From contig JACRGQ010000003.1 in the NCBI GenBank assembly GCA_016217735.1, positions 1-64,000 of the forward strand: a stretch of 64,000 bases of DNA, in the 5' to 3' direction. Shown in pieces: positions 3,763 to 37,926 of this stretch. A program made the translations under genes and the position numbers. A model generated the notes under the pieces. The model was not told the origin of the DNA and ran no database searches. It worked only from the letters and a program-made list of their open reading frames with translations. Position 1 is the first letter of the stretch, and each line of letters begins with the position of its first letter. The DNA is from Nitrospinota bacterium. Its GTDB lineage: Bacteria > Nitrospinota_A > UBA7883 > JACRGQ01.

Positions 3763-4682
3763 ACAATCGGATCGTTGTCGCCGTGCGGGAGGCGGAGGAC
3801 GGAGAGCGGCTGGACAAATTTTTAACGGAAAGACTCCCGGAGCTTTCCCGCAGCGCCGTTCAGCGGCTTATCGAAAAAGGGCTGGTTACGTTGGCGGGCC
3901 AGCCGGTGCCATCCCGCCACAAGACTGTCGCCGGCGAGGAGTTCGCGGTGGAAATTCCGCCGCCGGAACCGCTGGACGCCGAGGCGGAAGATATCCCGCT
4001 CGACATCGTTTACGAGGACGAACATATCGTAATCATCAACAAGGCTTCGGGCATGGTGGTGCATCCCGCCAAGGGGCATGTGCATGGCACGCTGGTGAAC
4101 GCGCTGTTGGGGCATTGCGAGGGGCTTTCCGGCATCGGCGGCACGGTCCGTCCCGGCATCGTCCACCGCATCGACAAGGAAACCACCGGCCTGCTGGCGG
4201 TGGCCAAGAACGACGTTGCCCACGCCGCGCTTTCAGAACAGTTGAAAACCCGCGCGATGGGGCGCGAATATTTGGGGGTTATCCGCGGCGTCATTACGCC
4301 GCCCGCGGGAACCATCAACAAGCCAATCGGCCGCCATCCGCTCTACCGCAAAAAGATGTCGGTGAAAACCAACTTTCCACGTGACGCGGTGACGCTATAC
4401 GAAACGCTGGAAACCTACCGCGGAGCCGCCTTGGTGCGGTTGAAGCTCAAAACCGGCCGCACACACCAGATACGGGTACACATGTCGGCCGTGGGACATC
4501 CGTTGCTGGGAGATTCGCTCTACGGCAAGGAAAAGTCCAAGCTGATAGGGCGGCCCGCCCTGCACGCCGAAACGCTTACGCTGGTACACCCCGTCACCGG
4601 CGAAACAATGCGCTTCACCGCGCCGCTCCCGGTGGACTTTACCGCGCTTCTGGAAAAATTGCGCGGCGGGACGGTTTCATAG
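3759..4682 (+). CDS. rluD: RluD-family 23S rRNA pseudouridine synthase
   Basis: Converts uridines to pseudouridine in large-subunit rRNA. The product (307 residues from ATG 3759) has an N-terminal S4 RNA-binding domain (about 17-65) and the RluA/RluD catalytic motif GIVHRIDKETTG with catalytic Asp139. The start was set at 3759 because AGGAGG lies 5 bases upstream and the ATGA overlaps the lgt stop. RluC or another RluA-family target cannot be ruled out, but an S4 domain with this length suits RluD. Confidence 0.88.
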   Translation: MNNRIVVAVREAEDGERLDKFLTERLPELSRSAVQRLIEKGLVTLAGQPVPSRHKTVAGEEFAVEIPPPEPLDAEAEDIPLDIVYEDEHIVIINKASGMVVHPAKGHVHGTLVNALLGHCEGLSGIGGTVRPGIVHRIDKETTGLLAVAKNDVAHAALSEQLKTRAMGREYLGVIRGVITPPAGTINKPIGRHPLYRKKMSVKTNFPRDAVTLYETLETYRGAALVRLKLKTGRTHQIRVHMSAVGHPLLGDSLYGKEKSKLIGRPALHAETLTLVHPVTGETMRFTAPLPVDFTALLEKLRGGTVS

Positions 4683-4719
4683 GGGTATTACCGCGCCGGA
4701 CTGTTAAAATAATGCCGTT

Positions 4720-7700
4720 ATGAATAAGGTGCTCAGCCGAATCCGAATGGCCGCCGCCATCGCGGCGCTTGCCGGAGCGGGTGGTTTTGGGGCGATGGAA
4801 CTCGCCAAGTCGCGCATCGACCCCAACGGCTACCGGGAGCGGATAACCGGGGAGATCGCGCGGACATCGGGCATTCAGGCCGGCTTCGAGCGGCTGGAGT
4901 GGCTGCCGTACCGCCCCGGCGTAGCGGCTATTATCCCCACGTTGCGCAAGAACGGCGTGGATATCCGCGCTGGCCGGCTGGAGGCGGTCATTTCGCTGCC
5001 GTCGCTGCTGTTCGGACCGCCCCGTCTCTCCCGGCTTTCCATCGACGGCCTTGTGCTGACCGCCGAGCGGGACGAAGAAGGACTCTGGAATCTCGCTCAA
5101 CTGTTCACCAACGGCCGGAAAGACGGCGGAGCGCTGACGCCGCCGAATAACGTGGTGATAACCAATGCCAATGTGGTTATTTTGGATGCCTATGCCCCAC
5201 GCCATGCCCCCGTTCTTGATGAACGGCGTCAAACGGTCTTCGACGACCGCGCGGCGAAGGATTATTTTGAAGGGGGAAATAATGCGCGTGACCGCGAGCC
5301 GCGGCTTACCCCGGCGGAGCCGGTCAGCCCGTTGAGCCTCTATATTCCTCCGGCGGCGGCCGACCCGCCAAAACAGGCGAACGATGAACCGCCCCCGCCA
5401 AAGCTGCTGCTGCTGCGCGGAGTTAACCTGCATTTCCATGGCGGCGGATGGGTGCTCCCCACCTCCCTTCAATTAGAGGCGGAACTGATCGACCCCGCAT
5501 TGCGGAAAAACCCGCTCTATCGCCGTCTCAAGCCGGGAAGAATGGAGCTTTCCCTTAAAAGCCGCGTGGGCGCTCCCGGCTGGAATTGGGATCGCGCGAT
5601 GACAAAGGGAACCGTCATGGTCGATTCGGTCTATTCCGGCAGTTTCGATGCGTACCTGGCCAACCTGCTGCCTGAGCACTATTCCCACAAAATCTACGCG
5701 TTCGATTTCAAATTCAATGGACGCCCGTCGGAGGAATTAGCTTTTAACGGGTCACTATCCGCCCGCCCGGTCGAACAAGCGGCCGGCCCGATGTTTTCCT
5801 CCGGTTTCGGGCGCGAGTTCCGCCGGTTCAATATCACCGGCGCCATCAGGCCCAACAGGATCACGCTCGACCACGTCGAGGTATACCTTCCTGAAGCCCG
5901 GCTTGACATGCGTATGGAAATCGCCAATTACCGCAAGCCCGACCCGGATATCAGCTTTCGGGCCGACACCTCGTTCATCGAGCTTGAAAAGCTGGATCGC
6001 CTGATCCCGCCCGCTTATCTAAACGACCCGGCGGCGCAAATGATCCGCAAGAGCATGCGCGGCGGCCGTTTCAGGGTATCCGGCCTTTCGTTCAACGGCC
6101 CCTATAGCGCGTTCTTACGCATTGCGGAACCGGAGAACATGGAGCGGATAGCGGGCCGGCTGGAAGTGGAAGACGCGGGCTTCCTCATGGCGGGAATGAA
6201 GCAACCGGTGGAGAAAATCAAAGGCGTGATCGACATCAAAGGGAACCAGCTTTTTTTCCAGGACCTTTCCGCCGTCCACGGCCACAGCGCCATCGCCAAG
6301 TGTGGCGGCTCCATTACCGGGCTGCGCACGAACCCATATTTGAAAGCCGTGATCGTGGCGGACATGGATATTGCCGAGCTGCGCGATGAGGCGGTGGCGC
6401 GCATCGCCTCGAAAAAGCTGGACGAACTGATCGAGCCGGTGCGAAACGTTGCGGGAACCGCGCGCGCCACCGTGAATGTGGAGGCGTATCCGCTGGAACA
6501 ACGGCTCACGGAGTTGGACGCCGACCTCCTCTTTACGAACGTCAGTTTCCGCCACGAACAGTTCAAGGTGCCGGTTTCGGAATTTAACGGCATATTTCAT
6601 GTGACCCCAACCGTCATCGAAATAAAGGACGCCGCCTTTAACGTGGAGGGGAGCGCCATCACCGTCAGCGGCGCGGTGCGCCGGTATGCGGAACCGGAAT
6701 ACGATATGGATCTGAAAATAAACATCGCGGGCGGCATCCCGCGCATGGCGGAAAGCCCCCTGTTTGACGAGCGGTGGCGGAAGGGGGTCACGGGAAACAT
6801 CGCGGGAAGTCTCGCCCTTTCCGGCACGGTGGAGAACCTTGCCTTCCGCGAAGAGCTGAACCTCACGCAAGCCGGCATAAAACTTCCGAAGTTTGTGGAC
6901 AAGCAGCCCGGCCATTCCCTGAACGTGGCCGCCAACGGAACGCTGCAAAGAGGCAACAGCCTCACCATCGAGGAAGGGCGCATCGATTTTGGCAATTCCC
7001 ATATCCGTTTTCACGGCACGGCGCCTGACATGCGCACGTGGAAGGCCTATGCCTTCGACGCGAACGTGGATATGCTCGATTTGGGCGATGGACCCGCTTA
7101 TGTCAAGGATTTCAAGAAAGGGGCCGTGGCGGGCCAGATAAAAGGGAAAATACGCGTCACTGATGGCGGAAAGGCGCCGGCGGCCGCCGGTACCCTGAAT
7201 GTCAAGATCGGGCATCTTGATCTGGCGCAGTTGGAACGCCTGAAACAGGAGTTACCGATGTTCGGTCATCTGAAGCTGGAGGGACGCGCCACCGGGGATG
7301 TGTCGATCCAATTTGCACCGGGACTGCTGCCAAAACTCCGCGGCTGGGTGCGCGGTGAAAAGGTCGGCTTTTACACAATGCTCCCCAACAAGTTCCAGGA
7401 TTTGAGCGGCCGGATTGCGCTGAAGGGGAATACGATCAGTTTTGCCGATATCCCGTTCACCAGCGGCAATTCATCCGGCGAGGCCAGCGGCTCCGTGCTC
7501 ATACACAAAAAGCCGGTCTTCAAGCTGGATGTGCGGGCTAAAAACCTCGATCTGGCCGACGTGGTCTGGCTGGAAGGGGCTCCCGACCCCTGGTGGTCCG
7601 AGGAGCCGCTCTTTTATACCGATCTCATCCTTACGGCCCGTTCAAACTCCGGTACGCTTGCCAGCATTCCCTATGATGACCTTGACCTCGATATGCGCTA

Positions 7701-15771: not shown

Positions 15772-16152
15772 TCAGGAACTGGCGGCCGGTTCCGAATTCA
15801 AAAGGCGTTTGATCACCACCATCAGGATGTCCAGATCAAGCGGCTTTTGAATATATTCAAAGGCGCCCAGCGTGTGTACGGCCTGGATGTAGCTTTCTAT
15901 TCTCGGATGGGCCGTCATAATGATGAACGGCATATTGTTCCCTTTTTCCCGCACTGAGCGCAGGAAGGTCAATCCGTCCATCGGGTGCATCTGGATGTCG
16001 CTTATGACGATATCAAACGGCTGGTCCTCAAGGAGTCCCATCGCCTCGGCGCCGTCTGAAGCGGGTACCACGTCAAACTGCTGAGACCGCAGGAAGGTCT
16101 GCAGCACGTGCATCGTAAGGGGGTCATCTTCGGTAAGCAGAACTTTTGGCAT
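15772..16152 (-). CDS. Single-domain response regulator (receiver only)
   Basis: A 126-residue CheY-like receiver: acidic pair in TEDD (residues 7-10), phospho-acceptor in DIVISDIQM, conserved Thr in IIMTAH and Lys in YIQKPLD. No output domain follows, so it must act by protein contact. The start at 16152 is set by homology and by a perfect TATAAT (16165-16160, minus strand) ending 7 bases before the ATG with no Shine-Dalgarno, a leaderless layout. The upstream 16-bp hairpin (16166-16205) separates it from glnA. Its cognate kinase is not obvious; two orphan kinases lie nearby. Confidence 0.85.
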   Translation of the reverse strand: MPKVLLTEDDPLTMHVLQTFLRSQQFDVVPASDGAEAMGLLEDQPFDIVISDIQMHPMDGLTFLRSVREKGNNMPFIIMTAHPRIESYIQAVHTLGAFEYIQKPLDLDILMVVIKRLLNSEPAASS

Positions 16153-34326: not shown

Positions 34327-34354
34327 AAAAAAAGGGAAACGGCGGGGCCGCCGT
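34327..34354 (-). terminator. Terminator of the lytic transglycosylase gene
   Basis: On the minus strand, ACGGCGG and CCGCCGT (plus coordinates 34339-34345/34348-34354) form a 7-bp stem that starts at the stop codon, followed by TTCCC and seven T (34333-34327). Confidence 0.6.
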
Positions 34355-35013
34355 CAGAGGGAACGGCCCGCCGGGAAGTTGCGCATCCGGTGGTAATTCG
34401 CCATTACTTTTCCGGCGTAGATGCGGTCCACGCCGTCGCTATCCGCCATATCGCGGCGCAACCGGGTGGGGCCGCGGTTGTAGGCCTCCAGCGCGAGGTT
34501 CAGATCGCCAAAGCGCCGTAAAAGCCGCGCCAGGTAGCGGGTGCCGAGGCTGATGTTCAGCTCGTTGTCGGTGAGCACGGCTGGCTGCCCGCCTTCCCAC
34601 TCCCCGCCGTAGAGCGCCGCCGCGGTGTGCGGCCGAAGCTGCATGAGGCCCACCGCCCCCTTGGTGGAAACGGCGAAACGCCTAAAATCGCTTTCCGTCT
34701 TGATAATGCCGAGCACCAGAAACGGATCGATCCGGCATTCCCCCGCTTTGGCGATGATGAGGTCGGCCAACATCACGGGGTCGTGGTGCAACGAATCTTG
34801 AAACTCCGCCAGAATGGCGCTGATTCTGGCGCGCAGTTCGATTTTCTTCCCGTTCCGCATATTCCAGTCGTGCTGGCTGGCAACGACGGCTTCGAGGGCG
34901 GCCCCGCGTACGCGGGCATCCGCAAGCTGCGCCTTGCAATACTGGGAAAACTGAAGGAGCGCCACGGCGGTGATCGCCGCCGCCATCGCCCCGTATCGAT
35001 AAAGAGGTTTCAT
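34354..35013 (-). CDS. Membrane-anchored SLT-type lytic transglycosylase
   Basis: Cleaves peptidoglycan to anhydro-muropeptides. From ATG 35013 (GGGAGA upstream) the 219-residue protein has an N-terminal signal anchor (about 5-22), then an SLT/LysM-less GEWL domain: the catalytic Glu is in KTESDFRRF, followed by GLMQLRPHTA and the ALEAYNRGP motif. Size is typical of small MltE/Slt35-like enzymes. Products would feed NagZ and AnmK. Confidence 0.88.
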   Translation of the reverse strand: MKPLYRYGAMAAAITAVALLQFSQYCKAQLADARVRGAALEAVVASQHDWNMRNGKKIELRARISAILAEFQDSLHHDPVMLADLIIAKAGECRIDPFLVLGIIKTESDFRRFAVSTKGAVGLMQLRPHTAAALYGGEWEGGQPAVLTDNELNISLGTRYLARLLRRFGDLNLALEAYNRGPTRLRRDMADSDGVDRIYAGKVMANYHRMRNFPAGRSL

Positions 35014-35355: not shown

Positions 35356-37926
35356 ATGTTATTGACTTGTCCCAAGTGCGCCACGCGCTACGAAGTGGAT
35401 GGCTCATCCATCCCCCAAGAGGGAACATACGCCCATTGCGCCACCTGTGAAAACATCTTTTTCGTAAAGAAAAAAATAAAGGCCGCATCCAAGGATGTGG
35501 CAAAAACCACAATGCCTGCCACGCAGGAACAGCCGGCGCCACAACCTGTTGAAGCCGCCGCCGAAGTTGCGGCGGAAGCCACTGCCCCGTCCTTTGAAGC
35601 AAAGCCCGCCCCGGAAGCGCCCATCCCCCCGGCCAAAGGTAAAGACGGTAAAGAGAGAAAGGACCTCACGCCGGAACAAGTGGCGGCAATCATGAGCGGG
35701 ATCGAGTACGAAGGAAAAGCGAAAGATGAAAAAAACGATTCCACCGACTTGACGGCACAGGATCAGATCGATTCCATTCTGGGGAATGTCCACGACGATT
35801 TCAAGGTAATTACCGCTCCGCTCCCCTCCGCCGTCGCGGAAAAAACGGCGGTGAATGCCGGCGACATCGAGGCGCTTTTAGCCAGCGTTCAAGCCCAGCG
35901 CCCTGAAGAACCGGTGTCCGCCCCGAAGCCCGCCGCCAAAGAAGAGGTCGGCGCGGATGACATCGCCGCCATCCTCGCATCCGTCCAGGCGCAGCAACAG
36001 GCACCGAAAAAAGAAGAGCCCAAAATGGCCACGGCAAGCGATATCGACGATATCTTTGCATCCGTCCAGGCGCAGCAACCGGCACCGGCGCCCGCCCCGA
36101 AGCCCGCCGCCAAAGAAGAGGTCGGCGCGGATGACATCGCCGCCATCCTCGCATCCGTCCAATCGCAGCAACCGGACCCGAAAAAAGAAGAACCCAAAAC
36201 GGCCACGGCAAGCGATATCGACGATATCTTTGCATCCGTCCAGGCACAGCAACAGGCACCGGCGCCCGCCCCGAAGCCCGCCGCCAAAGAGGAGGTCGGC
36301 GCGGACGACATCGCCGCCATCCTCGCATCCGTCCAATCGCAGCAACCGCCCGCCCCGGACAACATTGACGCGATATTTGCCGGCGCCAACGCCACGCCTT
36401 CGGCGGGCAAAATGGATAGCCAAGACGACATCGACGCCATTCTGATGACGGCCGCCGCTCCCGCGCCGCGGGAAAGCATTCTGGAACAGGAAGCCGTCTC
36501 TTCCACCCAAGCTCTTTCCAATAACGACATCGATTCCATCCTGGCCGGCGCGGCAACCGAAAAAGAATCTCCCGCTCCCGCCGCGCCGCGGGGAGAGGAT
36601 GGGAACATAATCTCGCAATCCGACCTCGACTCCCTCTTTGCGGCCGCCGCCGCGCCGTCGGCCCCCGCCGCGGAAAAGCCCTCGAAAGAAGCCGAGGGGG
36701 ATTTGATCTCGCAAAACGACCTTGACGCCCTGCTGGGCGAAACCAAGGCCCCGTCCGCCGCCGCGGAAGAACCGGGCGATCTGGTCAGCCAGGGCGATCT
36801 TGACGCCCTCATGACGGGGGAAGGCGCGCCGAAAGCCGCGGCCCCAGTGTCCGCGGGTCAGTTGCTGGAGGAGGGAAACGACGAGTTGGAATCGCTGTTC
36901 GCCCAGGAAGCGGGCGGCTCCATTGCAGTTCCCAAGGCGGCAACCGCGGCGGCTCCGGCGCCGGAATACGAAGGGGTCGACACCTCGATGTTCGAGGGAT
37001 TGGACAAGATAACGGCGGAAGAGGCTCCCGCCGCCGCGGAAGAACACCACGCGGAAGCGGAGAAGAAACCGGGCACACTATCCAACATCATCGCCTTTAT
37101 TAAAAATAAGCTGCCCAAACGCAAACAGAAAGAGCGGGCTTTTACCATCGAGGAAGAGCACCACGCCGAACCGGATCACGGCGAAGCGCCGAAAAAGAAA
37201 AAAGCCGGGATGCTGGTCAAGATCGCCCTCCCCGCGGCGGCGGGAGTGGCGCTGACGCTCGGGGCCGGCTGGTACTACTTTGTGAAACCGAAATCCCATC
37301 CGGTGGTGGCGGCCCAAAAAGCCGCGGCCCCGGAAAAGGCGCTGCCCGCTCCGGCGCAACCGGTGGCGGAACCGCAAAAGGAAACGCCCCCCGCCGAAAC
37401 CCACGCGGCGCCGCCGCCCGCGCATGAGGAAGCAAAAGCCGAGGCTCCCAAAGCTCCGCCGCCGCCCGCGCATGAAGAAAAGAAACCCGAAGCTCCCCCC
37501 GCCGCCACCGCCGAGGCTCCGAAGCCGAAGGACGCGAAGGAGGCCGCCGCGGCCGCGCACGAAGACGCGCGCAAGGCGGCGCTTGAGGCGGAAAAGCTGA
37601 TCCCCCCCTCCCTGGTGGAAGCCACCATCATGAAAGTGGGCGTGATGCTGCCGGTGGACTTCAACTCATCGCAGGTGAAAATGATGACCGCCGAAGTGGA
37701 ACTGCAATTCGCCACCGCGTCGGAATTCAAAACGGCGGAGGCCAAAAAATTCATCTACGAACTGGCGCTTGAAAACGAGATCGAAGTGTTCTTCAAAGAC
37801 AAGTTCTACGAAGAAACCCGCTACGCCAAAGACAAGCTGATGGCCTACCTCTTTGAGCGCATCAAAAAGCGGGGCGATCTGGAAAAGATCACCGGCGTGA
37901 ACATCGCGGAACTCGCCCTGAAATAA
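35356..37926 (+). CDS. Zinc-ribbon, multi-FliM-motif membrane scaffold protein (function unknown)
   Basis: An 856-residue protein with an unusual plan. Residues 1-35: MJ0042-type zinc ribbon (CPKC...CATC). Residues about 130-560: fourteen short motifs of the form [SQ]xD[IL]D[AS][IL][LF], such as SQNDLDALL, SQDDIDAIL, NNDIDSIL and GDLDALM, in low-complexity Ala/Pro/Lys linkers; this resembles the FliM N-terminal CheY-binding motif. Residues about 616-640: one membrane span. Then a Pro/Glu/Ala linker and a conserved-looking C-terminal domain (about 750-856, LVEATIMKVGVMLPVD onward) of periplasmic topology. A 174-bp tandem repeat codes part of the motif array. No homologue recognised. Confidence 0.85.
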   Translation: MLLTCPKCATRYEVDGSSIPQEGTYAHCATCENIFFVKKKIKAASKDVAKTTMPATQEQPAPQPVEAAAEVAAEATAPSFEAKPAPEAPIPPAKGKDGKERKDLTPEQVAAIMSGIEYEGKAKDEKNDSTDLTAQDQIDSILGNVHDDFKVITAPLPSAVAEKTAVNAGDIEALLASVQAQRPEEPVSAPKPAAKEEVGADDIAAILASVQAQQQAPKKEEPKMATASDIDDIFASVQAQQPAPAPAPKPAAKEEVGADDIAAILASVQSQQPDPKKEEPKTATASDIDDIFASVQAQQQAPAPAPKPAAKEEVGADDIAAILASVQSQQPPAPDNIDAIFAGANATPSAGKMDSQDDIDAILMTAAAPAPRESILEQEAVSSTQALSNNDIDSILAGAATEKESPAPAAPRGEDGNIISQSDLDSLFAAAAAPSAPAAEKPSKEAEGDLISQNDLDALLGETKAPSAAAEEPGDLVSQGDLDALMTGEGAPKAAAPVSAGQLLEEGNDELESLFAQEAGGSIAVPKAATAAAPAPEYEGVDTSMFEGLDKITAEEAPAAAEEHHAEAEKKPGTLSNIIAFIKNKLPKRKQKERAFTIEEEHHAEPDHGEAPKKKKAGMLVKIALPAAAGVALTLGAGWYYFVKPKSHPVVAAQKAAAPEKALPAPAQPVAEPQKETPPAETHAAPPPAHEEAKAEAPKAPPPPAHEEKKPEAPPAATAEAPKPKDAKEAAAAAHEDARKAALEAEKLIPPSLVEATIMKVGVMLPVDFNSSQVKMMTAEVELQFATASEFKTAEAKKFIYELALENEIEVFFKDKFYEETRYAKDKLMAYLFERIKKRGDLEKITGVNIAELALK
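35920..36350 (+). repeat. 174-bp tandem repeat inside the scaffold gene
   Basis: Units start at 35920, 36094 and 36268 (the last partial), an exact 174-bp (58-codon) period. Each encodes an EVGADDIAAILASVQ block and a SDIDDIFASVQ block. In-frame periodicity allows copy-number change without loss of reading frame. Confidence 0.85.

Follow-up and report, generated by a model that had tools for sequence, protein, structure and literature searches.

Architecture of the scaffold protein and its gene

The stretch of DNA analyzed (the window) comprises 64,000 nucleotides of a Nitrospinota contig and carries, on the forward strand at 35356..37926, a gene for an 856-residue protein, hereafter the scaffold protein, in which a zinc ribbon, a motif array, a membrane span and a FliL-like domain follow one another. 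The MJ0042-type zinc ribbon occupies residues 1-36 (35356..35463; C5, C8, C28 and C31) and scored above the curated cut-offs of both Pfam Zn_ribbon_4 (PF13717; E 2.7e-9) and NCBIfam MJ0042_CXXC (TIGR02098), confirming the zinc ribbon proposed in a first-pass annotation made from the sequence. Beyond this ribbon, no Pfam or NCBIfam domain was matched in the protein. MJ0042 zinc-ribbon membrane proteins such as AgmX/GltJ of Myxococcus also have an N-terminal CxxC...CxxC ribbon followed by a linker and a span, and the scaffold protein shares this order; we know of no FliM-like array or FliL domain in proteins of the AgmX/GltJ type.

Residues 134-515 (35755..36900) contain the array of 14 motifs resembling the N-terminus of FliM, set in linkers rich in Ala, Pro and acidic residues. 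On the 3' side of the array, a conserved stretch, G[IV]DTSM[FL]E[GS], lies at residues 540-548 (36973-36999 of the window) and was seen in most orthologues of family f1. Hydropathy revealed one hydrophobic segment at about residues 617-640 (37204..37275), in line with the single span described earlier. It is immediately preceded by KKKK, which suggests an N-terminus-in topology with a predicted cytoplasmic arm of about 616 residues ahead of the span. The predicted periplasmic part consists of a linker rich in Pro, Ala, Glu and Lys (residues 641-756; 37276..37623) and a FliL/SPFH-like C-terminal domain (residues 757-856; 37624..37923) recognized by AlphaFold, Foldseek and profile comparisons. 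The 107-residue domain that the first-pass annotation had placed on the far side of the membrane is thus present as a folded C-terminal domain, but the folded part covers only about residues 757-856, residues 641-756 being linker. The divergent neighbour on the reverse strand (34354..35013) encodes a membrane-anchored lytic transglycosylase with an SLT domain (Pfam SLT, E 4e-23).

A conserved array of FliM-like motifs

Fourteen variants of a D-[IL]-D-x-[IL]-[LF] motif had been claimed for this protein. Fourteen relaxed variants can indeed be counted between residues 134 and 515 (QIDSIL, DIEALL, three copies of DIAAIL, two of DIDDIF, NIDAIF, DIDAIL, DIDSIL, DLDSLF, DLDALL, DLDALM and ELESLF), 11 of them under a loose pattern and the other three being the DIAAIL copies, but only 6-7 fit the strict pattern D-[IL]-[DE]-x-[IL]-[LF]. 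The exact SQ prefix reported for several motifs was found on four of the 14 (SQDDIDAIL, SQSDLDSLF, SQNDLDALL and SQGDLDALM), all within residues 355-486 (36418..36813); an example of an array peptide is GDLISQNDLDALLGE. When the residues of the linker were shuffled 500 times, loose matches averaged 0.03 and never exceeded one per shuffle, compared with 11 in the actual sequence, and a pattern scan found the strict motif in the periplasmic part of no orthologue, indicating that the motifs are far above chance and confined to the predicted cytoplasmic side.

A search of 60 relatives recovered one C-domain homologue per genome in 15 other genomes, all of them Nitrospinota; viral contigs yielded no relatives of the scaffold protein. 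These orthologues keep the motif array, the span and the C-domain, as well as the zinc ribbon wherever the contig includes the N-terminus, and all arrays not cut by a contig end hold between 2 and about 27 motifs, the sole motif-less orthologue (L025) being truncated in this way. In one orthologue (G011) the zinc ribbon (L029:6820-7710) and the array with the C-domain (L029:7494-9083) lie in two overlapping frames, which may reflect a gene split in two or an assembly error within the repeats. Loss of the motifs in orthologues, which the first-pass annotation had named as a refutation of its receiver-binding hub hypothesis, was looked for and not found within Nitrospinota. The consensus of 76 distinct strict instances reads S-Q-D-D-[IL]-D-[AS]-[LI]-[LF]-A; S at position -3 and Q at -2 are retained although the search pattern left these positions free. 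In motif-array searches of 385 genomes, low complexity escaped the protein query and most sites matched by the strict DNA pattern were single, so that arrays may also exist elsewhere.

Part of the array is a recent DNA tandem repeat with a 174-bp unit (35910..36348, forward strand; 2.5 copies, 95% matches), which holds DIAAIL and DIDDIF copies, so that the 14 motifs do not represent 14 independent inventions. This repeat and the variable number of motifs favour the view that the array is a slippage-prone low-complexity linker without binding function. We consider that view very improbable, since the motifs outside the tandem repeat, the four SQ-prefixed copies among them, are gap-free and show significantly higher conservation than the intervening linkers (within the genus, 85% identity in motif columns vs 59% in linker columns, and 0 vs 44 gap columns), and since the motifs, with their FliM-like residues, persist across families and two classes. 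AlphaFold placed short helices on all six motifs modelled in the non-tandem part, with the linkers below pLDDT 50, the pattern expected for isolated binding helices.

In these Nitrospinota genomes FliM itself begins with MS[QD][IV]LSQ[ED]EVDALLRG, and the array consensus is in register with the LSQ[ED]EVDALLRG segment of the same genomes. The array thus shares the SQxx[IV]DALL helix register of the CheY-binding (EIDAL) segment of FliM/FliY, whereas FliM has one N-terminal copy and the scaffold protein has 2 to about 27 internal ones. Membership of the FliM/FliN/FliY families was rejected because the Pfam scan found no SpoA or CheC-like domain in the scaffold protein.

Relationship of the C-terminal domain to FliL

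The AlphaFold model of the C-domain shows a beta-beta-alpha-alpha-alpha-beta fold (mean pLDDT 79). When compared with the PDB by Foldseek, the top 10 matches were all FliL proteins (Vibrio, Helicobacter and Campylobacter), followed by SPFH domains of stomatin; the best structural matches were 6ahq, 7sgn and 9hmf. The FliL matches had probability 1.00 and TM scores of 0.61-0.69, with a best E-value of only 3.5e-3. A sequence search of the PDB with the C-domain profile or a motif peptide returned nothing relevant. Against Pfam FliL (PF03748) the window protein gave no match, and one of 16 members reached E 0.07; members from a second phylum, described below, scored 22.3-23.0 bits (E 1-2e-4; cut-off 24.6), and the gathering score was passed by no family member scanned. 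The modest Foldseek E-value and the absence of members over the Pfam cut-off count against a reading based on FliL.

In profile comparison, alignment A1 alone matched the FliLs of the same genomes only marginally, at an hhalign E of 0.028, and after a divergent member from the second phylum was added the match reached a probability of 54% and E 1.3e-4, colinear over 80 columns. We take this as distant homology of the C-domain to FliL, as predicted fold and sequence profiles together suggest, which bears out a hint in the first-pass annotation that FliL profiles should be searched.

Canonical FliL genes are separately present in the same genomes, so the scaffold protein is best seen as paralogue-like, equipped with a new arm, and not as the FliL of the motor. 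Like FliL, it has a single span and a predicted periplasmic SPFH-like C-domain and is found together with flagella. The cytoplasmic tail of FliL, however, has 2-28 residues (PMC10127578), whereas that of the scaffold protein would have about 616, with a zinc ribbon and the array; the scaffold protein also falls under the Pfam FliL cut-off, coexists with canonical FliL genes and is not encoded beside fliM or a flagellar operon. It would therefore be FliL-like on the outside and possibly carry many FliM N-termini on the inside, without the full defining features of either family. Judged from sequence and structure prediction, flagellated Nitrospinota thus possess a previously undescribed membrane protein that resembles FliL but has a very large cytoplasmic arm. 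No description of this protein was found in the open-access literature, which omits most subscription papers, and to that extent the earlier statement that no protein of this plan has been described holds.

Co-occurrence with flagella and gene neighbourhood

In the class sampled (G001-G022), the scaffold protein was found in 14 of the 16 FliM-containing genomes but not in any of the 6 that lack FliM (Fisher p 4e-4, phylogeny ignored, the FliM-less genomes falling in two families), supporting the link to motility that had been suggested from the window. The two FliM-containing genomes without a match (G007 and G020) are fragmented into 410 and 490 contigs; they count against a role at the motor. 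The scaffold gene lies outside the flagellar cluster, on contig C3 beside the SLT gene, with canonical FliL beside FliM on contig C59.

The divergent SLT gene is found directly upstream in the window, at nine other Nitrospinota loci and at ten loci of the second phylum, several other loci ending before the SLT position. Other flanking genes vary between families and include glycogen phosphorylase, HU, GatB and RsgA, as named by eye from sequence. Only in G004 and G006, which represent two genera, does the next gene downstream (L023:10185-10844 and L024:9356-10018) encode a receiver domain joined to a lone HisKA dimerisation domain.

Members in a second phylum

The family was found in about 70 species genomes from two phyla. 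With profile A3, it was found in 57 of the 77 genomes of the phylum of G315, and weak second A3 matches in G398, G400, G402, G404 and G449 were canonical FliL. In the second-phylum proteins, an arm of acidic repeats links the zinc ribbon to the span and C-domain, and the ribbon is kept in both phyla in orthologues with an intact N-terminus. One contig of the second phylum (G453) exactly matches a sequence deposited under the name Nitrospinota, so the second phylum may be a mere database split of that group.

The arm repeats of the second phylum are of other types (DMDLDGLMDDIL, ELDNMLDDLI and E-E-D-[LM]-W-A-x-A-F-A-E-Q-D-E-L-N), reading DLDGLMDDIL and DLWAKAFAEQ in place of the FliM-like motif. 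Repeats of the E-E-D-[LM]-W-A-x-A-F-A-E-Q-D-E-L-N type were seen in L108, L113, L116 and L121 and matched no known binding motif. These differences suggest that the FliM-like array sequence is specific to Nitrospinota and that what both phyla share is a multivalent arm built of short acidic helices; this exchange of motifs speaks most strongly against CheY binding as a universal role. The only second-phylum FliM inspected, that of G028, begins with SQGEVDAL in a disrupted frame; its frame (L128) is broken exactly at the N-terminal motif, possibly through a sequencing error.

The upstream SLT gene is the most conserved element of the context, in both phyla, while the type of motif changes between them. 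Since short acidic helices also evolve easily, the scaffold protein might serve with the SLT enzyme in the insertion or anchoring of the motor in peptidoglycan, its repeats binding a lineage-specific partner other than CheY or FlhG and their likeness to FliM being convergent. We think this rather unlikely, because the Nitrospinota arrays retain the S at -3 and the Q at -2, which the search pattern did not require, and FliM-like residues are kept in two classes.

Candidate partners of the motif array

The outline of the protein also recalls HubP/FimV, single-span proteins whose long cytoplasmic part is acidic and rich in repeats. The scaffold protein has a single span and a predicted cytoplasmic part of the same character, whereas this part is N-terminal, in the opposite order, and a FliL-like domain is predicted outside; the Pfam scan detected no LysM, TPR or FimV domain, including the FimV C-terminal domain. 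The array could be a docking hub for FlhG, a MinD-like ATPase that controls the number and place of flagella, with the scaffold protein acting as a HubP-like landmark that limits or places them. The genome encodes FlhF (over the cut-off) and, directly downstream of it, a MinD/FlhG-like ATPase (L095:5795-6652) with the N-terminus DQAETLR, and FlhG is known to contact FliM/N via the FliM N-terminus, or FliY in Bacillus subtilis (PMC12826062). This binding, however, is known from other species, and the missing LysM, TPR and FimV domains weaken the parallel with HubP, so that an FlhG hub appears clearly unlikely.

The reading to which we give most weight is that the FliL-like protein mimics the FliM N-terminus in many copies and in this way gathers CheY-type receivers near the motor; we propose it tentatively, at a little under an even chance. 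The N-terminal EIDAL motif of FliM binds CheY (PMC6946799), and FliL is a short-tailed, ring-forming protein associated with the stator (PMC10127578; PMC6426602). The periplasmic FliL/SPFH-type domain would probably oligomerise and dock the scaffold protein either at the motor itself or where the motor is inserted into the envelope. The cytoplasmic arm of about 600 residues, which canonical FliL does not have, would display many helices of the FliM-N type, which could capture a partner multivalently, phosphorylated CheY-type receivers being the first candidate and FlhG the alternative. Receivers captured in this way might be concentrated, buffered or competed for beside the C-ring, and switching could be affected. 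The receiver-HisKA gene downstream in G004 and G006 counts in favour of receiver capture, but the occurrence of this neighbour in two genomes only, the location of the scaffold gene outside the flagellar cluster, and the difference between D-[IL]-D in the array and E-V-D in the host FliM (variant SQEEVDALL) count against it.

Receiver capture could be extended to a flagellar module of two phyla, in which the cytoplasmic arms of a FliL-like ring would present about a hundred or more FliM-like peptides, on which CheY-P (or FlhG) could be tunably stored or could land at the motor. A dedicated transglycosylase would belong to this module, and its docking motif would have been exchanged in a lineage-specific way. 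This wider proposal seems to us somewhat doubtful. The role of FliL is unsettled, and the concentration of CheY-P at the motor is normally credited to FliM/FliN alone. A FliL-like protein carrying its own array of FliM-type peptides would unite control from the stator side and from the switch side in a single molecule, and multivalency and motif turnover could naturally be studied in it.

CheZ was ruled out as a partner, since it was absent from all 24 genomes searched. In the genome of the window (G000), which lacks CheZ, 94 receiver-domain matches were found in 2.5 Mb, a large number of two-component proteins for so small a genome. Its stand-alone receivers include those at 15775-16152 of the window, C21:69492-69830, C50:4984-5325 and C71:37306-37644. 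The same genome has a second FliL paralogue on contig C14 (L097:3600-4226), which adjoins a gene for a fusion of a CheY-like receiver with TPR-like repeats (4259-5422) and a histidine kinase gene.
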